Virus record (IMG/VR): IMGVR_UViG_3300031841_005609
Span: 42,203 to 106,202 of that record
Length of the DNA: 64,000 bases
Origin: a virus
Reading direction: 5' to 3' (one strand)
A model generated the notes under the pieces. It searched no databases and had not been told where the DNA came from. It saw nothing but the letters and a program-made list of their open reading frames with translations. The translations under genes were made by a program, and so were the position numbers. Of this stretch, positions 28,720 to 41,755 are shown in pieces. Within the stretch, counting starts at the first letter, position 1. Each line of letters begins with the position of its first letter.

Positions 28720-31700
28720 ATGGCTGAGCAAACATTTAGATCACCCGGGTTTTTTGAACAGGAAATTGACCTTTCTGCTAGGCAAATAGCTCCTGTCGGA
28801 ACACCCGCTGGAGTCATAGGTACATCAGAATTTGGACCCGCATTTGTTCCAGTAACGGTAGGATCTTTCGCCGATTTTGAATCACGTTTTGGTACGCTAC
28901 ACCCAGACAGATTCGGACCTTATGCCGTAAGAGAATTTTTAAAGCACAGATCAGCTTTAACCTATCTTAGAGTTTTGGGAGCTGGAGCCAATGAGACCTC
29001 CACAGACATCCAGAACACTGAGCAGTACGGTTACGTTAAAAACGCCGGCTTCCGACTTACCGGTTCTTTGATGACTGACACTGATGGCGAAGGCGCTGAT
29101 GATCTTGCATTTCAGGGCGGTGTTGCTATTATATCTGCTAAACACACGCCCGTTGCTCACGAAGCGGCCAGCTATAGCTTATATACAGATAATGCTAGTA
29201 TTAGTAACAACACTGACGCTCATCTGGTCAGAGGCGTTGTCTTCTTAACAACTGGTTCTAAGCTCCAGATTCTTGATCACGATCAAAACTGGTCAATCGT
29301 AAATTCAAGAGCCGCCGGCGCTGAGGTCGGTGCCATTGGTGGTCTTTCAGATCAGAAATATTTTAAGCTTGCGATCAGCTCTTCTGCTGGAGCTTCTTTT
29401 TCAAATGATGAAGGAGTCCCGGGAATTAGAATTCTTACCGCATCCCTTGATCCGAACGACGGACAGTACATCGGCAAAGTTCTAAACACAAATCCACAGA
29501 ATTTTCAGAAGGAGCAACACCTTCTCTACTTAGACTATGCAGTTGAGCACGAACTCGCTCCTGTTACTGTAACCCCAGGAACAGACACAGTTGCAGTTCT
29601 TTCTGGTACGATAAATACTTCTACTAGAAACTCACTAAGATATGACAACATTGTAGGTCGTTACGACACGAGATACACAACTCCTCGAACTACAAGCTTT
29701 ATATCACAACCTTTCGGAAAGAAGGAGTTTGATCTCTTTCACTTTGAGACAATTTCTGATGGTGCTTATGCAAACGATAAATTTAAGGTCTCTATAGCTA
29801 ATCTTCGGGCTTCGACGGATCCGAACGATGCTTACGGAACTTTTGAAGTCCAGGTAAGACTCTTCGATGACAAAGATACATCTACTGAGATCATCGAGAG
29901 ATATCCTGAATGTAGTCTCAACCCAAGAAGCGATAGATACGTTGCTAGAGTTATTGGTGACAAAAAGGTTAGATACGATTTCGATCAGGAAGATCCTTCG
30001 GAAAGACGTCTTGTAATAACAGGAAAATATCCAAACCTTTCTTCTAGAATTAGAATCCAAATGAACGCTGGGATAGAAGCCGGCGAAGTTCCTGCAACTG
30101 CGCTTCCTTTTGGTTTTAGAGGAATACCGGTTCTAAAGACCAACAATTCTTTGACTGATGGTCTTACTGGACTCACCGACTCTGAGTCAAGAGCTTTGGG
30201 GGAAACAGTCCCAGACAATAGAAAGACACACAGGCTTAATTCTAACACTGATGCTGTTGCGCTAACAAGAGCAATAGTTCCTCCGATGCCGTATAGATTT
30301 AAGGTAACTAGAGGGGAAGCATCTTCTGATTCTACACCTGGTTTCGTTGGAACTCCTGGAACAAACGAAAGAGTTGACGGAAGATATTATTGGGGTGTTA
30401 ATTCATTAAGAATTCCAACTGCAGGATCTACTACAAATCCTGTCCTCAATTCAAACGCAGGAAACACGGTTAATCCTCTCGTTAGGGCTTATACCAAGTT
30501 CCAAGGAATTGAGAAGCTGGATGCACTTGTTTCTGGTTCTGCTGCTGATGAATTTAACTCAAACAAGTTCACGCTTGCAAGAGTTGCCTTCTCAAACAAA
30601 ACGGCAAACAACTCTCTATATGATGTTTTCTCAGCCTTTACTGGATCAGCTCCGGAGCACATGCTTGAAGCTGCTTACATCAGAGACGGACAGCCGGATA
30701 GAAACACGTATGTTGTGGATGATAGAGTCGCCGCAGGAAATAGATTTACTCTCGCTTCTTTGATTCACACTAGCTCGGTTCTCTTTAACAGATTCACCTC
30801 TTACGCTAAGTTTACCAACGTGTTCCACGGCGGATTCGACGGGCTTAATATCCTAGACAGAGATCTCTCGCTATTCAGGGATAAGGCGTTCTCAGTAGAC
30901 GCCGGAGGTAAATCAGTTGAAACAGGAATGAATATCGGTCTCGCTGATGTTGATTCAAAGAACCAGGGTGGTTCCGGAAGAAGAAGCAACAGTAACGCAT
31001 CTATGAGAAGAGCTGTTGATATCATGACTGATCCGATGTCTTCGAACATCAACATCCTTGCAATACCGGGCGTAAGAGAAACATTCGTATCGGATCACGC
31101 CCTTGAGAAGACCAGAGATTATTCGAAGGCTATGTACTTGCTAGATACTCTAAAGTACGATGAAAACGGAAATAGACTTTACGACGACAGCAAGGCTCGA
31201 GTGGATGTGAGAGAAACATCAGAGCAGTTCGAGAGCAGAGCTATCGACAACAACTACGCAGCTACATACTTCCCAGATGTTTTTATACAGGATCCTATTA
31301 ACAACAGAAATGTTAAGGTTCCTGCTTCGGTAGCGGCTTTGGGAACGTTGGCTTTCAACGACAGAGTTTCTTTCCCTTGGTTCGCACCTGCTGGTTTTAA
31401 TCGAGGTGGAATGGACTTCGTTGTAAATGTCGAAAACAGACTCACTTCTGGAGACAGAGACACACTGTATGATGCAAGAATGAATCCTATAGCTGTTTTC
31501 CCGAACACTGGTTTCGTTATCTTCGGGCAGAAAACTCTGCAGTTTACAAAGTCTGCTCTCGACAGAGTCAACGTTAGACGCCTGATGCTAGAGATTAAAC
31601 GACAGGTTACTGGAGTGGCTGAAAGATTCTTGTTCGAGCCGAACAACGCTACGACTCGATCTAGGTTCGTAAGCCAGATAACTCCACTTCTTGGACTCAT

Positions 31701-31875
31701 CCAGTTGCAGGCAGGTATAGAGCAATTTAAGGTTATCTGTGATGCTTCCAATAACACCTCTGAAGAGGTCGAGCAAAACAGAATGAATGGACGAATCGTT
31801 GTTGTACCTACTAGAGCGGTTGAATTTATCTCAATCGACTTTATCATAACAAATAGCGGCGTGTCCTTTGAGTAA
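28720..31875 (+). CDS. Tail sheath protein (gp18-like), copy 1
   Basis: A 1051-residue contractile sheath protein. The N-terminus (RSPGFFEQEIDLSAR, PVGTPAGVIGTSEFGPAFVP) and the C-terminal domain (ALDRVNVRRLMLEIKR, FEPNN, AVEFISIDFIITNSG) are conserved sheath features. It exceeds T4 gp18 (659 residues) through large inserted central domains that should decorate the tail surface. It is 41 bases upstream of a second sheath gene with the same plan. The start ATG 28720 follows AGGAG. Confidence 0.88.
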   Translation: MAEQTFRSPGFFEQEIDLSARQIAPVGTPAGVIGTSEFGPAFVPVTVGSFADFESRFGTLHPDRFGPYAVREFLKHRSALTYLRVLGAGANETSTDIQNTEQYGYVKNAGFRLTGSLMTDTDGEGADDLAFQGGVAIISAKHTPVAHEAASYSLYTDNASISNNTDAHLVRGVVFLTTGSKLQILDHDQNWSIVNSRAAGAEVGAIGGLSDQKYFKLAISSSAGASFSNDEGVPGIRILTASLDPNDGQYIGKVLNTNPQNFQKEQHLLYLDYAVEHELAPVTVTPGTDTVAVLSGTINTSTRNSLRYDNIVGRYDTRYTTPRTTSFISQPFGKKEFDLFHFETISDGAYANDKFKVSIANLRASTDPNDAYGTFEVQVRLFDDKDTSTEIIERYPECSLNPRSDRYVARVIGDKKVRYDFDQEDPSERRLVITGKYPNLSSRIRIQMNAGIEAGEVPATALPFGFRGIPVLKTNNSLTDGLTGLTDSESRALGETVPDNRKTHRLNSNTDAVALTRAIVPPMPYRFKVTRGEASSDSTPGFVGTPGTNERVDGRYYWGVNSLRIPTAGSTTNPVLNSNAGNTVNPLVRAYTKFQGIEKLDALVSGSAADEFNSNKFTLARVAFSNKTANNSLYDVFSAFTGSAPEHMLEAAYIRDGQPDRNTYVVDDRVAAGNRFTLASLIHTSSVLFNRFTSYAKFTNVFHGGFDGLNILDRDLSLFRDKAFSVDAGGKSVETGMNIGLADVDSKNQGGSGRRSNSNASMRRAVDIMTDPMSSNINILAIPGVRETFVSDHALEKTRDYSKAMYLLDTLKYDENGNRLYDDSKARVDVRETSEQFESRAIDNNYAATYFPDVFIQDPINNRNVKVPASVAALGTLAFNDRVSFPWFAPAGFNRGGMDFVVNVENRLTSGDRDTLYDARMNPIAVFPNTGFVIFGQKTLQFTKSALDRVNVRRLMLEIKRQVTGVAERFLFEPNNATTRSRFVSQITPLLGLIQLQAGIEQFKVICDASNNTSEEVEQNRMNGRIVVVPTRAVEFISIDFIITNSGVSFE

Positions 31876-31916: not shown

Positions 31917-34900
31917 ATGGCAGAGTTAACATTTAAGAGCCCGGGCGTAAGCACCAGAGAAATAGATCTCAGCGGTCCAACAGCGATCCAACCTACAGGA
32001 GTTCCTGCAGGAGTTATCGGAACCGCCGTTAGAGGACCTGCTTTCGTTCCAGTTACTGTGGCAACCTTTCAGGACTTCGTTGCCAAGTTCGGAAACACAG
32101 ACGGAGAGAAATTTGGACCTCTAGCCATGAACGAATGGTTGCGAAGTGCAAACGCCGGAACATACGTTAGAATCCTAGGTATCGGTGATGGTAAGAAGAG
32201 AACTTCTGCAGGCGCCAATGCAGGTAAGGTTACCAACGCAGGGTTCGTCGTCGGCGGACAAACCGTCCAAGGCAACGGGTTTATGGGGAACAATCCATAC
32301 TCTGATCACGCAACGTCTGATAAAGCTGGTCCCTTAGGAAGAACTTACTTCTTAGGAGCATTTCACTCTGCTTCAGCCGGAAGCTCTTTTCTCTCAGAAG
32401 CAGGTCTTCAAGGCGGCACAAGAGGCACCCCGGCATCTGCTACCTTTGCTGCTCTCGGCGGCGGAGCCGATCGAATTAAGATAATCTGGAGAGATCCTAA
32501 TACAAAGGCCGGAAACGGAAAGCGAATAGAGCTTAGGGTCAACGCCGCGGCCGCTCAAGGCGCCGGCGCATTCGCAGTCGATTTCGACAGCCCACAAGAC
32601 AAGCTTCGAATAACTGTTAGATTGAACTCCGACGAACTCGGATTTGGAACAATAGCTGAGCTCGTTGAGCTTATCAACACCGGTGACATCGCCACTCCCG
32701 GCATGACTGCTTTAACTGTAGACGATACAGAAGGCTTAAGACAGAAGATCCGAGCTGAAATCGTTGGTGATGACGGATCTGAAGTTCTTCTAGATGGAGA
32801 TGATGAAATTATTACTCTCTCGGGCGGAACGGCTGGTAACTTTGCTGCTTCTCCTATAATCAGAGGCGTCTTGATGGCACCTTCTGGCGTCAACATCACA
32901 ATGAGTACTTCTACTGTTGCAGATGCTAACAATATAGTGAAATCAGACGCCAACGAGGCCGGCGGCGGACCTTTCGGAGATGTTAATGTAGGATCAGCAA
33001 AACAGGAATTTGCTCTCTTGCTTAATGGGCACAAGAAGTCAGATCTTTCTACAAACGTGATCACTGCTTCTTTTGATCCGAGCGCACCGAACTACATCAC
33101 TAAGGTCATCAATACTGATCCTACCAAGATAGAAGAGCAGGGAATATACCTTCACTCTGCTTACGACATCTATCAAACTCAGGCTATAATCACAGGATCA
33201 GGTGTGACAGGCCACCTTGACACCGACAAGATTCGATACGAATCTGCGTTCTTGCTGTCGGGATCTGGGGGAAGAGACTCGGGTACAGCAGCTACGTCTA
33301 CTTCGATCGGCGTGCCAAACTTTGAAAACTTTCAAGATAGATTTACAACTGCTTTCTCTCCTTTTGTCATGTCACAGAAGTTCGGCGGAAAGAATGAAAA
33401 TCTCTTTAGAATCCACGCGTTAGATGACGGAAGAGCTGGGTCTGATGCATTCAAGATTACGATTGATGGAATACAGGCATCAACAAACGAAAATGATCCA
33501 TACGGTAAGTTTAACCTACAGGTTCGCTTCTTATCAGACTCTGATGCTGAGCCTGTCGTTCTAGAGTCGTTCCGAGGCCTGGATCTTAATCCTTCAAGTG
33601 AGAACTTCATTGGAAGAAGAATCGGTGATCGACATACATTCTACGATTTCGATAAATCGGCAGGAGCTCAAAAGATTGTTGTTGACGGAACTTATCCAAA
33701 CGTTTCAAACTACATTAGAGTAGAACTTGATCCTTCGGTGAGCGATGGAACAGCTAACAAGGAATCAGTCCCTGTCGGTTTCCGAGGCTTACATCACCTT
33801 GTGACTTCTGGATCAACGATATCTGTCGGAGACGCAAATACAGCTACGGGCGGTCTTGCAATCTTGACGGGATCTCACATCAATGCCAAGGCTGCTGGTT
33901 TCCAGCTATATAATTCTCCGAATTCACCAGCGCTTCAGAAAATAAATCAACCACCTGTCCCGATGCGTGAATCTGTTGCTGTAGGCGTCTCACCAAAGAA
34001 GACCGTTAATGCCAAGCTCACGTGGGGTGTTCAGTTCGAAAAGAAAGATTCGATCACAGAACCCAACAGAAGCCAGGTGCTGAATGATTCAATTAGAAGT
34101 TTTACCAAGTATTTCCCGTCTTTCCACACTGTTGATCAAAACGCGATCGTAGGAGACAATGAGGGAACACCTGATGTTGCTGGTTGCGTTCTTGACGCAG
34201 ACAGATATAACAACAATGCCTTCAGTCTTGAGAAGATTCAAATCGTCACGACTGCTGCTGATAAGCCTGATGCACAACAATGGGCTGCAGCCCTCTATAG
34301 AAGAAACGGACAGGCTTCGGATTCAATTCTTGATGTCGATGGTGTTTCTACCACAGACACCAGGCTCATAAATCCTGCAGTTGACTTTAAGGTTCTTTCC
34401 GCTCGAAAGTTCCTCAAGTTTACCTTCCCACTCCAGGGTGGATTCGATGGTGTAAACATTTTCGACAAGGATAAGTCAAAGTTCACTGACGCAGCTCTCA
34501 GAAGAGAGATGGACGATTCTTCAAACCAGGGCGGAAAAGAAGGACCAACTGTTGGAGCTTACAGAAAAGCGATATCAGTCATGGAAGAAAAGACTGATGT
34601 CGACATCCAGCTTCTTGCAATTCCAGGCGTTAGACACGAATCAGTCACAGACTTTGCAATAGACTCTGTTGAAAGAAGATTTGATGCACTTTACATTATG
34701 GATCTTGAGGAACGAGACACACTCAATAATCCGATCACAGGATCAGGTTCCGTAATTAACGTGAAGAATACTGTTGATAGACAAGCTGCGAGAAACATGG
34801 ATTCTTCTTTCGCTGCAACTTACTTCCCGGATGTTGTTATAACTGATCCTGCAACGCAGACAAACGTACAATGTCCGCCTTCTGTTGCGGTTCTTGGTGC

Positions 34901-35435
34901 TTTTGCTTTCAACGATTCAGTGGCACATCCTTGGTTCGCTCCGGCTGGTTTCAACCGCGGTGCTCTTTCAACGACAATAGAGTCGCAGGTTAAGCTTAAT
35001 AGAGACAATCTTGATGATCTCTACGAAGTAGATATCAATCCGATCACCGCATTCCCATCAACACCGGGAGTTATCGTTTTCGGACAGAAGACCCTGTTAG
35101 CTGCACAAAGTGCTCTTGACAGAGTCAACGTAAGAAGACTGCTGATTGACGTTAGAAGAAAAGTTAAGAACGTCGCCAACTCACTTCTCTTCGAACCAAA
35201 CAGAGAAGATACATTGGCCAAGTTCAGCAACGCTGTTACACCAATTCTTTCGAGAATCCAGCAACAGCAAGGTCTTGATAGATTTAGAGTTCAGATAGAC
35301 ACCACAACAACTACGCAGGCTGACGTTGAGAACAACACGATAAGAGGAAAGATCTTCTTACAGCCTACGAGATCTGTTGAGTTCATCTCACTCGATTTCG
35401 TTGTTACCAACGCTGGACAATTTGAACAGGCTTAA
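31917..35435 (+). CDS. Tail sheath protein (gp18-like), copy 2
   Basis: A 1172-residue sheath paralogue. N-terminal KSPGVSTREIDLSGP and GVPAGVIGTAVRGPAFVP and C-terminal ALDRVNVRRLLIDVRR and SVEFISLDFVVTNAG align with copy 1, while the central region differs strongly and carries extra Gly/Ala-rich domains. Both copies look intact. Two sheath genes may give a mixed tail or alternative surface domains; which one dominates cannot be told. The start ATG 31917 follows AGGAG. Confidence 0.88.
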   Translation: MAELTFKSPGVSTREIDLSGPTAIQPTGVPAGVIGTAVRGPAFVPVTVATFQDFVAKFGNTDGEKFGPLAMNEWLRSANAGTYVRILGIGDGKKRTSAGANAGKVTNAGFVVGGQTVQGNGFMGNNPYSDHATSDKAGPLGRTYFLGAFHSASAGSSFLSEAGLQGGTRGTPASATFAALGGGADRIKIIWRDPNTKAGNGKRIELRVNAAAAQGAGAFAVDFDSPQDKLRITVRLNSDELGFGTIAELVELINTGDIATPGMTALTVDDTEGLRQKIRAEIVGDDGSEVLLDGDDEIITLSGGTAGNFAASPIIRGVLMAPSGVNITMSTSTVADANNIVKSDANEAGGGPFGDVNVGSAKQEFALLLNGHKKSDLSTNVITASFDPSAPNYITKVINTDPTKIEEQGIYLHSAYDIYQTQAIITGSGVTGHLDTDKIRYESAFLLSGSGGRDSGTAATSTSIGVPNFENFQDRFTTAFSPFVMSQKFGGKNENLFRIHALDDGRAGSDAFKITIDGIQASTNENDPYGKFNLQVRFLSDSDAEPVVLESFRGLDLNPSSENFIGRRIGDRHTFYDFDKSAGAQKIVVDGTYPNVSNYIRVELDPSVSDGTANKESVPVGFRGLHHLVTSGSTISVGDANTATGGLAILTGSHINAKAAGFQLYNSPNSPALQKINQPPVPMRESVAVGVSPKKTVNAKLTWGVQFEKKDSITEPNRSQVLNDSIRSFTKYFPSFHTVDQNAIVGDNEGTPDVAGCVLDADRYNNNAFSLEKIQIVTTAADKPDAQQWAAALYRRNGQASDSILDVDGVSTTDTRLINPAVDFKVLSARKFLKFTFPLQGGFDGVNIFDKDKSKFTDAALRREMDDSSNQGGKEGPTVGAYRKAISVMEEKTDVDIQLLAIPGVRHESVTDFAIDSVERRFDALYIMDLEERDTLNNPITGSGSVINVKNTVDRQAARNMDSSFAATYFPDVVITDPATQTNVQCPPSVAVLGAFAFNDSVAHPWFAPAGFNRGALSTTIESQVKLNRDNLDDLYEVDINPITAFPSTPGVIVFGQKTLLAAQSALDRVNVRRLLIDVRRKVKNVANSLLFEPNREDTLAKFSNAVTPILSRIQQQQGLDRFRVQIDTTTTTQADVENNTIRGKIFLQPTRSVEFISLDFVVTNAGQFEQA

Positions 35436-35487: not shown

Positions 35488-35976
35488 ATGGCAGAGACAC
35501 TATCAGTTACCGACATGCTCCCAAATAAGTTCGAGCCCAAGCGAAAGTTCAGATGGGTTTTCGCTATAGAGGGAATCGACTCATTTTTGATGAAAACGGC
35601 AGCACGACCTTCAATCACAACAGAAGAGGTCGAGGTACCTTTTATTAACCACACCCGATACGTTGCAGGAAAGACAAAGTTTGAAGCGTTGTCAGTAACT
35701 CTGCACGACCCAATCGCTCCATCAGGCGCACAGCAGGTTATGGAATGGGTAAGAACTCACTTCGAATCTGTGTCAGGTCGTGGCGGATATGCAGATTTCT
35801 ACAAGAGAGATTGCCAGCTTAAGCTTCTCGATCCTGTTGGAACTGTTGTTGAGCTTTGGGACATCAAAGGCGCTTTCTTGACCGCTGCATCTTTCGGGGA
35901 TCTTGACTACGGTGCTTCGGATCCAACCGAAATCTCTTTGACTATCCGATTCGATAACTGCGTACTTCAGTACTAA
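35488..35976 (+). CDS. Tail tube protein (gp19-like)
   Basis: A 162-residue protein of exactly the T4 gp19 length class (163). It has the tube pattern NKFEPKRKFRWVFAIEGID near the N-terminus, RPSITTEEVEVPFINHTRYV, the ALSVTLHDPIAPSG strand, and a closing GDLDYGASDPTEISLTIRFD. It stacks as hexamers to form the inner tube under the sheath. A strong terminator follows, consistent with high-level expression. Confidence 0.92.
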   Translation: MAETLSVTDMLPNKFEPKRKFRWVFAIEGIDSFLMKTAARPSITTEEVEVPFINHTRYVAGKTKFEALSVTLHDPIAPSGAQQVMEWVRTHFESVSGRGGYADFYKRDCQLKLLDPVGTVVELWDIKGAFLTAASFGDLDYGASDPTEISLTIRFDNCVLQY

Positions 35977-36225: not shown

Positions 36226-37083
36226 GTGTCAAACGAACAACGTCAAAACAATGAAGTCTTTAGCGCTGCTCAAGCTAGTCAAACAGGCTTCAGAACATCT
36301 AACGTCATGAAAGACGACTTCGGCTACGAAGTTCCAACCGAAGCAGTTCCGCTTCCTTCTGCTGGAAAGGTCTATCCTCCAGAATCAGGTTTGTACTCTC
36401 AGGAAATGATCGAGATCAAAGCAATGACAGCAAAGGAAGAAGATATTCTTACTTCTAGAGCTTTGATTAAAAAAGGTACTGTTATCACTGAGCTCATTAA
36501 GTCTTGCTTGATTGACAAGACAGTTGATGTAGACACGATGATCGCCGGCGACCGAAACGCAGTTATGACAGCTCTTAGAGTTACGGGGTACGGATCAGAG
36601 TATAATGCTCAAGTTTCTTGTCCTGAGTGTGGAGAATCTTCAAAACAAGACTTTAGCTTGACAGATCTTCCGATTAAGCGACTTAATATTTCTCCGGTTG
36701 CCGAAGGAGCAAACCTCTTCGAGTTTAAGTTGCCCCTTACTCAAAAAACAGTTCAGTTTAAGTTCCTGACCGGTAAGGACGAAACCGAAATGGCGACCAT
36801 CGCAGAGCGCCGCAAGAAGCAAGGTCAAAAAACCGACAGTTTGGTTACATCAAGACTTGTTCATTCAATCGTTTCAATTGAAGGGATAACCGATAGAAAC
36901 AAGATTGGAATGTTTATAAAGAACATGCCTGCTAGAGATTCTCTTGCTCTTCGACGTCACATCGACGACAATGAACCTGGCATTTCAATGAAGTCATGGA
37001 TGGAATGCCCACACTGTGATGAACACTCGGAGGTAAATTTGCCCTTAGGGGCTTCGTTTTTTTGGCCTGACGCCGAACGATAA
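36226..37083 (+). CDS. Tail assembly/baseplate hub protein (gp26-like, T4_baseplate family)
   Basis: A 285-residue protein starting at GTG 36226 (ribosome site GAGG). The core MIEIKAMTAKEEDILTSRAL, KSCLIDKTVD, ALRVTGYGSEY is typical of the T4_baseplate/gp26 family. Two CxxC pairs (CPECGESS and CPHCDEH) suggest a bound zinc. Position just before the tape measure is where tail chaperones such as lambda gpG or P2 gpE lie, so an assembly chaperone role is equally possible. A run of seven Ts near the 3' end (37057-37063) may cause a +1 shift into the next frame. Confidence 0.8.
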   Translation: MSNEQRQNNEVFSAAQASQTGFRTSNVMKDDFGYEVPTEAVPLPSAGKVYPPESGLYSQEMIEIKAMTAKEEDILTSRALIKKGTVITELIKSCLIDKTVDVDTMIAGDRNAVMTALRVTGYGSEYNAQVSCPECGESSKQDFSLTDLPIKRLNISPVAEGANLFEFKLPLTQKTVQFKFLTGKDETEMATIAERRKKQGQKTDSLVTSRLVHSIVSIEGITDRNKIGMFIKNMPARDSLALRRHIDDNEPGISMKSWMECPHCDEHSEVNLPLGASFFWPDAER

Positions 37084-37327
37084 AGAAGTTTATCTGGAGC
37101 AGATATGGGGGCTCATGTACTATATGGGCTTCACATACTCTGATGCGTACAACTTACCTGTATGGAAAAGAATCTGGTTCATCAACAGAACGGTTGAGGA
37201 ATTTAAAAAGTCCTCTGAGAACGGAAGCCCACCAGCTTCTAAAGCCGCCCACCAAAACACACCTGATCAAAGAGCTTTAATGGGCTTGAGGCCCGATGCA
37301 CCCGCCAGGCTGAGAAGGTTTACGTGA
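37049..37327 (+). CDS. Probable +1 frameshift extension of the gp26-like protein
   Basis: This frame is open from 37049 (after a TAG at 37046-37048) to 37327. Its first ATG is at 37115, giving 70 residues, but protein-like sequence already precedes it (EVYLEQIWGLMYYMGF), in a pattern typical of short proteins after gp26 homologues. The 0-frame stop is at 37081-37083, so a shift must occur within 37049-37083, where TTTTTTT lies at 37057-37063. This mimics G/GT-type tail chaperones upstream of the tape measure. The alternative is separate initiation at 37115 or at a non-ATG codon. Confidence 0.55.
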   Translation, partial: GLRFFGLTPNDKEVYLEQIWGLMYYMGFTYSDAYNLPVWKRIWFINRTVEEFKKSSENGSPPASKAAHQNTPDQRALMGLRPDAPARLRRFT

Positions 37328-37414: not shown

Positions 37415-40400
37415 ATGGCAGATCTAAACGAACAATTGAGACTACAAACTGAGCTAAACAAAGTAATAGCTCAGAGACAAGCTCTCATTGACAAGCAGTC
37501 TGCATCCCTTCGACAGCAAGCTCAGATATCAAAAGAGATATGCAAAGCCCTTGAGTGCGGCAGTCTTGAAGACGGAATTAAAAAAAGCAGAGACTTTGGA
37601 AGCTCTCTTGATCAAGCTGCAGAAAAAGCCGAAAAAGCCTCCCAGAAGAACCAGGGTTTCGCGGATTCTATAAAGCAATCTGGTGAGAACGCCAAAGGTG
37701 CTACGAGTCGGTTTAAAAGACTTTTCAAAGCCATTTCCAACAATGCAGTCAAGATAGGTTTTACTCTTGGGCTCATGAAGGGCTTCGGAAATGCGTTTAA
37801 GTCCATTACCAACCTTGGAAAAGGTTTGGTTCGCGGCTTCATGGCGATAACTAGAGGTGCATTCAATCTAGGCAAAGCTATCATTAAGATTCCGTTCCAG
37901 ATAATGGGAAATCTTATGCAGATGGCCCAGCAAGGTGGGATATCTCCTTTCAGGCAAGCACTAGAAAAACTCAGAGGAGAAATGGGTGACCTTGCGTCTG
38001 GTCCTGCGAGAGATGTCGTCAACTCTGTTTATAACATAAGAAAGACTTTCAACGACTCTTCTCAGAGTGCAGTTGGTTTTGGAAGAATCTTTGGGTATGG
38101 TCAGGAAGGTCTGGCCAAGGCTCTAGAGTTCTCCATGGAAGCTGCCAAGGGTATAGGCCCTGTTTTCCATACAATGACAGAGGAGTTTAAGGAGAACGCC
38201 GGCAAACTCGCGATGTTCCAGAAAGGTCTGGGTCTTACGTCTGAGCAAATGGGTGATGTTGTAGCAAGAGCAAAAGCCGCAGGAGAAGACTATAACAAAG
38301 TTTTCGCTGAGATGGAACACTACTCTCACCATCTAGGAAAAGCTTTTAACATCTCCTCAAAGGCAATCAGCCGAGACGTTGGCGAGATGAGAATGGATAT
38401 TGAGCGATTCGGCTTTGCCAGCGTTAAGTCTCTCACAGAGACCGCTGTTCAAACCAAGCGCTTGGGCATCACGATGAAGACCCTTCAGGGCGTTATCGAT
38501 AAGTTTGACAATTTCGAAGATGCTGCTCGATCTGCTGCACGCCTAAGAAGGCAGTTCGGAATCATGATTGACGCTCGCAAGATGGTCGGCATGTCTGGTA
38601 TCGAAAGACTCGAGTACATAAAGAAGCAGTTTGCTGCTTCTGGAAAAGATATCACCAAGATGGGCCGAATTGAGATGAAATACCTCAAAGAAGCCACCGG
38701 CATGGATGCAGCTCAACTTGCTGCTCTTACTGGAAAAGCGAACAAGAATAAATCTCTTAACGATGTCAAGAAAGCAGGCGCAAAAGCACAGGCGAAGGAA
38801 ATAAGTCAAGCTAAGTCGATGCTCCGACTTTCAAAGGCAATCGAGAAGCAGCTGCAGTCAGGCAACACGTCCTACAGGAGTTTCTTTGGAGCATTCTTAG
38901 GAGGATTCCAGAAGGGCGTTATGAGAGCTGGTCCGTTCCGAAAGATGCTAAGAAATCTTGCCAAGTCAATCAGGGTCGTTGAAATGTCCGGACGCCGGGT
39001 AGGTAGAATGTTCGTCAGAATGTTCCCTGGGATGAAGGACATGGTCGAGGGCCTGCAAAAGCTTTTTAATCCCGGAAGATTCAGGCCTTTCATGGGAGAG
39101 ATTGAGTCTCACTTTAAGACTCTGTTTACTGCTCTTAGCGCTTCTCCTACCGAAGTTTCCGCTGCAATGGAGAACTTCTTCTCCGGGATCACCGAATCTT
39201 ATAAGAAATTCTTCAAGTCAGGCGGCCCCGGGGCAAAACAGTTTGCAAGCGGTTTTGATACATTCGTGACCGTCATAGGAAATGTCGGTCTTAAGCTTGT
39301 TGCAAAAACATCGGAAATTGCTGCAAACATGATCAACGCTCTTGCTGATGGCCTTCAGAAGATCAACACTTCGAAAATCATGTCGGGAGGGGAGACAGCG
39401 GCAGAGATCGCCGGCGAAGGTCTATCTAGCAGGTTCGGAGCAGGCTTTTCAAACTTGTTTACTGTTCTAAAGGACAAGCTGTTTCCTGCACTCGGAAGAA
39501 TATTCTCAGAGATGATCCCGTTTGTCATGCGAGGCCTCTTTAACCTCATGGACAAAGTCAAGCAATATTTCAAAGACAACTCAAAGGAGCTAGGTAAAAA
39601 GATTGGAGAGGCTCTTAAAAGCACATTTTTTGTCTTGATAGAGCTCTTCAAAAATATGCCTTGGGAAGCTCAAGCTCTGATCATAGCTAAGATCTTCGGA
39701 GGAGCTCTTCTCGCAGCGCTCATTGCGTCACTTCCAGGATTGTTAGCCTCCGGCTTCAGTATGATCGCTCCAGCTATCGGAGCTGCCCTTACTGGCCCAA
39801 TCGGTATCGGTGTAGCAATGGCACTTGCAGGTGCTGCCATGGAAACCAAGATAAAAGAGCACACCGGAAAACTGGAAAAAGAATATGGAACACAAATAGG
39901 AAGAGTCGCCGGAGGGCTTACAGCTCTCGTGGATACAGTTACTTTCGGATTGATCCCAGAATCTGCGATGACCTCAATCGGAACCTTCCTCGGTGACAGT
40001 TTGGGGTCTATAAAAAATGTCATGGACTCTCTTGGTTTGGGTGTGCTCTTCGATGGAGCCGCAGATGCCGCTAGCGGCTTTTTTAAGACTGTTGAGGGCC
40101 TAGGAGAGGTTCTAAAGGGAATTTTTACCCTCGACTTCGAAAAGGTCGTGAGCGGCTTTAAAAACATCGGCCGCGGAGTCACTCGCTACTTTATCGGCTC
40201 CATTAAGTTTGCTATCGGTAAAATACTGGCAATTCCAGGCGTACTCTGGGCTGCAGTCAAGCAGATACCAAACGTCATTTCTGCAATCCCAGATATGATA
40301 TTCGGCGTAATCAAATCAGCCGGAGCATTCATTTACGGATTCTTTGATGAGCTAGGAATATTTCCTAAGGAGACCCTCGATCAAGTCGCAGGCTTCTTTT

Positions 40401-41755
40401 CTTCTGCTTTTGACACCATATACTCAATAGTCAGCGGAGTTTTCGACGGAATAGCACTTATTTTTGAAGGTCTCATAAAAGTAGTGTCTTGGGTTGGTTC
40501 GGGAATCTGGTCGGGTCTTAGCTGGGTTTTTGAAAAGCTCTGGGGAGCAGTTAAGTGGGTTGGAGGCCTCATCGGGGACATGATAGGCGGCCTTTTTGGT
40601 TTTTTCAAGAAAATCGGAAGTGCTATATGGTCCGTCTTCGAAGCACCTATCAATTGGATATCAGAGAAAGTCAAGTACTGGCTTAACAAGCTTCCTGGCT
40701 GGGCCAAGAAAAGGCTGGGAATAGGATCAGAGCTTGAGGAAGCAGCCTCAGAGGCTGCTGAACCCGTTGCTAAAAACGCTACAAAGGCAATCAAAGACGA
40801 GGTTCCAAACATGGTTGGAGCTTATAGCGGAGGCCTCGACCAAATGCAGTCACTGGCTTCGGGAGCAGATCTCGGGATGTCCATTGAGGTCACTCCGGAG
40901 TTCAAGGGCAACATGACAACCGACGCCAGGACTTTGATGTCTCTAGACCCGAGTGATAAGCTTGCAGTTAAGGTCGAAAAACTAGAGGACATGAAGAAGG
41001 TAGTCGATAACCTAAAAAAGCTTCAGGGGCTTCCCAAAGAGCTCGAGACAATGAAGAAGAAGTTTGACAAGATCGATCCGGACAAAATTGGGGCCTCTAT
41101 CATCAACCTCTTTGGCAAGATTGACGAGATCATGTATTACATCACGAATGAGATCACAACAAGAGGATACTCAACTGCAGGTGTAACTTTCGATACTTCG
41201 ATTATCGAAACTTTTGAGGGTATAAAGAAGCTAAGAGAATCACTGGACAAGGTGCTTGGCAAGGGCACCTTAAGTCAAAAGACTATAAACCTTAGAAAAG
41301 AAAACATCTCAAACGCTATAGACGCTGTGAGCGAACTAACCTACAAGGTATCGGGAGCGACAATTTACGGGGAAATGAACCCGTTTATAGAAGCCACAAT
41401 GGCTCTTCAGGGAACTCTAGAGGGAATACACGGTGAAGGAGGTCTTCTGTCTTCTGTTCCGAAGTCTATTGCAAGGAAAGTAAAGACAGCCAAGAAATCT
41501 ATAGACGAGGTTGGGAATATGATCGCCAAGATAAATAAGAGCAAGAACCTTAAGATAGCGGTTGCACTTGGTGACAAGATGTCTCAGAACGGAAAAGTAG
41601 CGATCACGATTGACAAGACTCAAATAAACTTGAACCTCAAGGTTGATATAAATGCTAGGAAGTTCGCACAAAAGCTTATTCAGGCTGATCTTAAGCCTTC
41701 ACAAAAAGGTAAGCAACGACTTGCCACGACTGACGACATCAAGGCTGCTAAGTAA
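37415..41755 (+). CDS. Tail tape measure protein
   Basis: A 1446-residue protein, the longest in the window, located after the tube and chaperone-like genes. The N-terminal 130 residues are a coiled coil (ELNKVIAQRQALIDKQSASL). The middle is helical, with a marked hydrophobic block (about 755-810, including LLAALIASLPGLL and AIGAALTGPIGIGVAMALAG) that could insert in the host membrane during injection; further hydrophobic helices lie around 870-1070. By the usual 1.5 angstrom per residue rule this would suit a tail of roughly 200 nm (inference). No lysozyme or peptidase motif was recognised. Confidence 0.82.
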   Translation: MADLNEQLRLQTELNKVIAQRQALIDKQSASLRQQAQISKEICKALECGSLEDGIKKSRDFGSSLDQAAEKAEKASQKNQGFADSIKQSGENAKGATSRFKRLFKAISNNAVKIGFTLGLMKGFGNAFKSITNLGKGLVRGFMAITRGAFNLGKAIIKIPFQIMGNLMQMAQQGGISPFRQALEKLRGEMGDLASGPARDVVNSVYNIRKTFNDSSQSAVGFGRIFGYGQEGLAKALEFSMEAAKGIGPVFHTMTEEFKENAGKLAMFQKGLGLTSEQMGDVVARAKAAGEDYNKVFAEMEHYSHHLGKAFNISSKAISRDVGEMRMDIERFGFASVKSLTETAVQTKRLGITMKTLQGVIDKFDNFEDAARSAARLRRQFGIMIDARKMVGMSGIERLEYIKKQFAASGKDITKMGRIEMKYLKEATGMDAAQLAALTGKANKNKSLNDVKKAGAKAQAKEISQAKSMLRLSKAIEKQLQSGNTSYRSFFGAFLGGFQKGVMRAGPFRKMLRNLAKSIRVVEMSGRRVGRMFVRMFPGMKDMVEGLQKLFNPGRFRPFMGEIESHFKTLFTALSASPTEVSAAMENFFSGITESYKKFFKSGGPGAKQFASGFDTFVTVIGNVGLKLVAKTSEIAANMINALADGLQKINTSKIMSGGETAAEIAGEGLSSRFGAGFSNLFTVLKDKLFPALGRIFSEMIPFVMRGLFNLMDKVKQYFKDNSKELGKKIGEALKSTFFVLIELFKNMPWEAQALIIAKIFGGALLAALIASLPGLLASGFSMIAPAIGAALTGPIGIGVAMALAGAAMETKIKEHTGKLEKEYGTQIGRVAGGLTALVDTVTFGLIPESAMTSIGTFLGDSLGSIKNVMDSLGLGVLFDGAADAASGFFKTVEGLGEVLKGIFTLDFEKVVSGFKNIGRGVTRYFIGSIKFAIGKILAIPGVLWAAVKQIPNVISAIPDMIFGVIKSAGAFIYGFFDELGIFPKETLDQVAGFFSSAFDTIYSIVSGVFDGIALIFEGLIKVVSWVGSGIWSGLSWVFEKLWGAVKWVGGLIGDMIGGLFGFFKKIGSAIWSVFEAPINWISEKVKYWLNKLPGWAKKRLGIGSELEEAASEAAEPVAKNATKAIKDEVPNMVGAYSGGLDQMQSLASGADLGMSIEVTPEFKGNMTTDARTLMSLDPSDKLAVKVEKLEDMKKVVDNLKKLQGLPKELETMKKKFDKIDPDKIGASIINLFGKIDEIMYYITNEITTRGYSTAGVTFDTSIIETFEGIKKLRESLDKVLGKGTLSQKTINLRKENISNAIDAVSELTYKVSGATIYGEMNPFIEATMALQGTLEGIHGEGGLLSSVPKSIARKVKTAKKSIDEVGNMIAKINKSKNLKIAVALGDKMSQNGKVAITIDKTQINLNLKVDINARKFAQKLIQADLKPSQKGKQRLATTDDIKAAK

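Follow-up and report, generated by a model that had tools for sequence, protein, structure and literature searches.

A marine phage locus very probably makes its tail assembly chaperone (TAC) pair by programmed +1 frameshifting, with a gp26-like protein as the predicted short form and a fusion of this protein to a C-terminal extension as the predicted long form. The DNA examined, here called the window, is a 64-kb stretch of a 106,202-base virus record, and the genes and signals of the locus, with the neighbouring tail tube and tape measure genes, lie on its plus strand. The gp26-like gene (36226-37083) has a GTG start and a TAA stop (37081-37083), and its 285-aa product, the putative short form (TAC-N or G-like), is encoded in the 0 frame and is akin to a known TAC through its matches to PF12322 (E 3e-17) and phrog_150 (baseplate hub, E 4.6e-22). 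The 0 frame ends with the codons GAG GTA AAT TTG CCC TTA GGG GCT TCG TTT TTT TGG CCT GAC GCC GAA CGA TAA. The overlapping frame is +1 and is open from 37049, after a TAG (37046-37048), until the TGA at 37325-37327; the candidate extension (TAC-C or T-like, 37064-37327) comprises 87 codons from GGC, followed by this TGA. The predicted fusion, TAC-NC, would be 366 aa long, with its first 279 residues from the 0 frame.

The two overlapping ORFs lie directly 5' of the tape measure gene, the placement that marks a TAC pair. The tape measure protein (37415-41755, 1446 aa) matches phrog_58, tail length tape measure, with E 5.2e-14 and follows directly 3' of the extension, and a tail tube protein (35488-35976, phrog_4542, E 1.4e-32) is encoded 5' of the gp26-like gene. 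Further 5' lie two very long coding regions in tandem, 28720-31875 (1051 aa) and 31917-35435 (1172 aa), whose products have similar N-termini; the latter product matches tail sheath domains, and the two are possibly duplicated sheath genes. In many relatives (L007, L009, L010 and others) the next long ORF begins approximately 300-380 nt past the extension stop, and elsewhere it is nearer; a misplaced tape measure start or a further small ORF in between may account for this spacing. An earlier note on this DNA had described the downstream frame as +1, opening at 37049, with a run of seven T at 37057-37063 and a first ATG at 37115, and the geometry is as described. The same note spoke of a gp26-like extension; the likeness to gp26 belongs to the 0-frame product, and the extension resembles the gp51 C-terminus in its position.

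The predicted slip site is TTT_TTT_TGG (37057-37065), and TTTTTTTGGCC occurs once in the 64-kb window, with 0.04 occurrences expected. Two scans of viral contigs yielded 96 loci; 95 records, including the window, match the +1 extension, and 94 sites were located, 76 of which are non-redundant (L060 gave no site because the contig end cuts the locus). At all 76 non-redundant loci the extension lies in the +1 frame and the codon following the P site is TGG, with TTT in the P site at 74 loci and CTT at two. The site reads TTTTTTTGG at 70 loci, TTCTTTTGG at three, TTTCTTTGG at two and TGGTTTTGG at one, and the 0-frame stop comes 3-6 codons past the slip. Such recurrence of the +1 arrangement and its site in 76/76 loci is far above chance, and with the downstream ORF in +1 throughout, the locus falls outside the class of canonical -1 slippery heptamers (X XXY YYZ). 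The proposal in the earlier note of a +1 shift at the T run, following the logic of G and GT, thus gains comparative support: the alignment of relatives that it had recommended as a check shows the T7 run at 70/76 loci beside the invariant +1 frame, and the junction it had predicted, SFF joined to GLTPND, is what the relatives conserve.

A second, wider set comprises 136 loci, two of which are cut off, leaving 134 in which the 0-frame end could be scored. The +1 frame stays open for at least 40 codons beyond the 0-frame stop in 132 of these (the other frame is open too in 11), and for 28 and 32 codons in the remaining two. Among 100 non-redundant loci of this set we found TTT_TTT_TGG at 59, TTT_CTT_TGG at 34, CTT_TTT_TGG at three and another +1 site at four. 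All 34 TTT_CTT_TGG sites are of the immuto type and mutually close, and therefore represent few independent events. Streptomyces-type loci have the extension in +1 in 12/12 non-redundant cases. In one set of eight loci from named genomes, seven carry a +1 site (immuto, Mel-JY01, SP-15, LIS04, vB_SagM-GXN1, LuckySocke and BRock), and the eighth, P-HM1, is -1. A homopolymer sequencing error was considered and rejected, as many independent contigs, sites without a long T run, and both immuto and Mel-JY01 all agree. Existing annotations of SP-15 (L100) and immuto (L098) show the extension as a small hypothetical gene that begins at an internal start, and in LIS04 (L101) it is not annotated.

Selection at the RNA level extends upstream of the site, to a GGAGG and a hairpin that the earlier note had not pointed out. 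Out of 172 codon columns scored across 75 loci, eight stand out with the highest excess of synonymous conservation: TCG and GAG of the sequence TCGGAGG, together with the site codons for S, F, F, P, D and A. Dual coding accounts for the constraint on P, D and A, where +1 is read as well; it does not explain the constraint on TTT_TTT and TCGGAG, because both lie upstream of the slip. At the two F positions of the site the codons are TTT and TTC in a ratio of 145 to 3, compared with 314 to 168 elsewhere. The SD-like GGAGG (37029-37033), within the codons TCG GAG GTA, is a putative stimulator with conserved spacing: its 3' end is exactly 29 nt 5' of TGG, and 26 nt from the P-site codon, in 60/76 loci, the other 16 having no GGAGG at that distance. 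Other clades have an SD-like stretch approximately 29-31 nt upstream although the amino acids encoded there differ (Mel type, AAG GAG; immuto type, GGA GGG). Within the stretch 18-51 nt upstream, SD-like sequences are present in 36/62 Mel-type loci (17.7 ± 3.6 expected) and in 34/34 immuto-type loci (18.7 ± 2.8 expected).

Between GGAGG and the site, a small hairpin, GCCC-UUAG-GGGC (37041-37052), ends 7 nt before the P-site codon and is a second candidate stimulator. In the window sequence alone it is not exceptional (-7.7 kcal/mol, z -1.37 by shuffling). Across 75 loci, codons -10 to -3 have a mean folding energy of -7.74 kcal/mol, against -3.93 for synonymous shuffles, the native sequence being lower in 93% of the loci, and eight control windows further upstream give z from -0.46 to +0.09. 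When codons were permuted column-wise among loci, which keeps the composition of each column, none of 300 permutations reached the native fold, and none of 200 was as good after thinning to 48 loci with less than 70% nucleotide identity. The signal is repeated in the relatives of Mel-JY01 (0/200 permutations) and in Streptomyces-type loci (z -1.87, n=10; core CCCAC-N5-GUGGG, with its 3' end 7 nt before UUU), and is weak in the immuto type (z -0.31, n=34). A gap of 7 nt between hairpin and site is the commonest value in the window family (22/75 loci), and is kept in only 2/75 once the segment given for folding takes in GGAGG and competing pairings arise; the exact hairpin geometry thus varies with the segment chosen. 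In the alignment of sites, RNAalifold finds only two invariant pairs, because the hairpin register varies. Downstream of the site, the segment 37066-37140 folds strongly in the window (z -3.52), and the corresponding fold in the family is at most mild (codons 10-34, z -1.23, compared with -0.93, -0.78 and -0.53 in three equally long stretches elsewhere).

Related phages with -1 sites provide a control for direction. In cyanophage-type gp26 genes, T_TTT_TTC is present in 77/77 non-redundant loci and the -1 frame is open in 76; these 77 sites show no hairpin signal (z 0.01) and no excess of SD-like sequences (13 observed, 16.3 expected). A further set of 13 loci includes nine with the -1 heptamer form and one with +1 (LR756508). 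The -1 heptamer form occurs in P-HM1 (already counted among the eight loci above), syn9, S-SM2, S-SKS1, phiM19, Ah1, QD01, Pseudomonas phage 30-3 and Atu_ph07, and IME-SM1, K483 and LR756511 (L112, L115 and L103) have gp26-type genes without a clear slip site for an overlapping frame.

Could the 70-residue ORF be a separate gene, translated from the ATG at 37115-37117 either independently or by reinitiation after the TAA at 37083? This ATG, the first of the +1 frame and codon 17 after the slip, is conserved in 65/76 loci, as a start would be. However, an SD-like sequence precedes it in only 2/75 loci, so that the independent ribosome site, without a slippery run, that the earlier note had named as evidence against frameshifting is not what the relatives show. 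Moreover, the 16 codons 5' of the ATG show coding-type conservation in the +1 frame, and codon positions 1 and 2 are more conserved than position 3 past the 0-frame stop as well (70 loci). A separate gene would also leave the conserved T run, GGAGG and hairpin unexplained. We consider it very improbable and judge the ATG to encode an internal Met. The extension has no significant family in Pfam, PHROGs or NCBIfam; profile comparison (hhalign) gives 96% to the immuto/Mel type, 63% to the SP-15 type and a weak 22% to gp51-type C-termini.

Loss of one T by transcriptional slippage on the T7 run would yield an mRNA with the same fusion, and is about as improbable as a separate gene. It would fit the T7 run at 70/76 and 59/96 loci and the first F codon of the site, which is TTT in 72/75 loci though slipping in the P site has no need of it; yet the same frame is conserved where the run has three or four T (5/76) or three T (34/96), and GGAGG and the hairpin would have no role. 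Even less likely is the -2 ribosomal shift that the earlier note had left as an alternative, which reaches the same downstream frame and for which UUU can re-pair on T7: at TTT_CTT_TGG sites it would place tRNA-Leu on UUC, whereas a +1 shift places it on UUU, as in prfB. A GC hairpin followed by T7 also looks like an intrinsic terminator or attenuator that would lower downstream transcription. We give this reading equally little weight, as the terminator scan does not list the hairpin (its 4-bp stem and 4-nt gap miss the scan criteria), Streptomyces-type sites combine the hairpin with no more than TTT, and codon phase and reading frame are conserved.

For the +1 ribosomal shift, we infer from the comparisons both that it occurs and that its efficiency is partial. 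The majority of ribosomes would complete the 285-aa gp26-like protein, and a minority would slip at the point where the second UUU holds the peptidyl-tRNA and UGG occupies the A site, as tRNA-Phe on UUU (37060-37062) re-pairs one base forward on UUU (37061-37063). The shifted ribosomes would read on in +1 to produce the 366-aa fusion with its 87-residue C-terminal domain, and both forms, as predicted chaperones, would have as their client the tape measure protein, whose gene follows. The upstream signal probably promotes the slip: GGAGG would pair with the anti-SD of the 16S rRNA, and the hairpin between GGAGG and the site would refold behind the ribosome as a duplex by the E site and/or shorten the distance from GGAGG to the site. 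We give about even odds to a natural composite +1 signal in phage tail chaperone genes, formed by the SD-like motif and the hairpin immediately 5' of the slip codon and working jointly behind the ribosome; on this reading an upstream hairpin marks +1 sites, and related phages lack it at their -1 sites.

Similar to the T4-like TACs gp26 and gp51, the locus has a short and a long form beside the tape measure gene, and its 0-frame protein is of the same family. The predicted +1 shift at YTT_TGG, preceded by GGAGG and a hairpin, sets it apart from T4, which has two separate genes, 26 and 51, on opposite strands. In T4 gp51 the match to phrog_150 runs along the protein and that to phrog_634 lies at the C-terminus, and by these matches gp51 is a long form that naturally needs no shift; phrog_634 is also matched by the -1 products of P-HM1, phiM19 and QD01. 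Vladimirov, Gautam and Davidson reportedly found in 2022 that frameshifting is conserved in several T4-like groups and that T4 uses genes 26 and 51. According to two later papers, which cite this work, some T4-like phages have a short chaperone gene beside a long, fused one (PMC10885494), and poly-T -1 signals are present in TAC-N genes of T4-like phages (PMC12846349); a poly-T site is shared with other T4-like phages, theirs being -1. A 2016 review describes G-T frameshifting as conserved, with T4 excepted (PMC5009743). Chaperone frameshifting in T4-like phages has already been published, and the +1 form with an upstream signal looks like a new variant of it.

As in lambda gpG/gpGT, a short and an extended chaperone are encoded in overlapping frames 5' of the tape measure gene (PMC5009743), although the lambda shift is -1 at another site. 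The site resembles that of prfB (RF2) in its YTT_T slip and upstream SD-like sequence, and the slip codon fits the prfB class; it differs in having the sense codon TGG rather than UGA in the A site, in the 26 nt between the SD-like sequence and the slip codon, where the much shorter prfB spacing is given as three bases (PMC12421855), and in the intervening hairpin. Shifts to +1 in phage structural or tail genes are described for the Listeria phages PSA, A118 and A500 and for haloarchaeal HSTV-2, the latter only as very likely +1 (PMC5009743); PSA-type shifts, in contrast, occur at proline codons of genes for the capsid and the tail shaft. In reporter systems with 70S ribosomes in vitro, refolding of a hairpin upstream of the site was found to stimulate +1 and attenuate -1 shifting (PMC6321510). 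Within the accessible parts of the open-licence literature we found no report of this +1 site in gp26-type genes, nor of a phage +1 site with an upstream hairpin of natural origin.

The AlphaFold2 model of the gp26-like protein is good (pLDDT 85.9) and that of the extension is modest and helical (pLDDT 72.1). Searched against the PDB, the gp26-like model has no match at a significant level; the HK97 TAC (2ob9) has an insignificant Foldseek E of 1.7 and a VIA Z of 4.6 (rmsd 3.9, 93 residues) that is tied with unrelated rows. Two CPxC motifs stand apart from each other in the gp26-like protein, where zinc-ribbon profiles match weakly near residues 124-144 and 257-279, and these motifs perhaps form one zinc site.

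The predicted shift would add a +1 form, spread over several phage groups, to the frameshifting of tail chaperones in the T4 superfamily. It would supply the missing long product for genomes whose annotation gives the small ORF a doubtful start or omits it, and the related proteins with -1 and +1 sites are test material for how a duplex behind the ribosome may set the direction of the slip.
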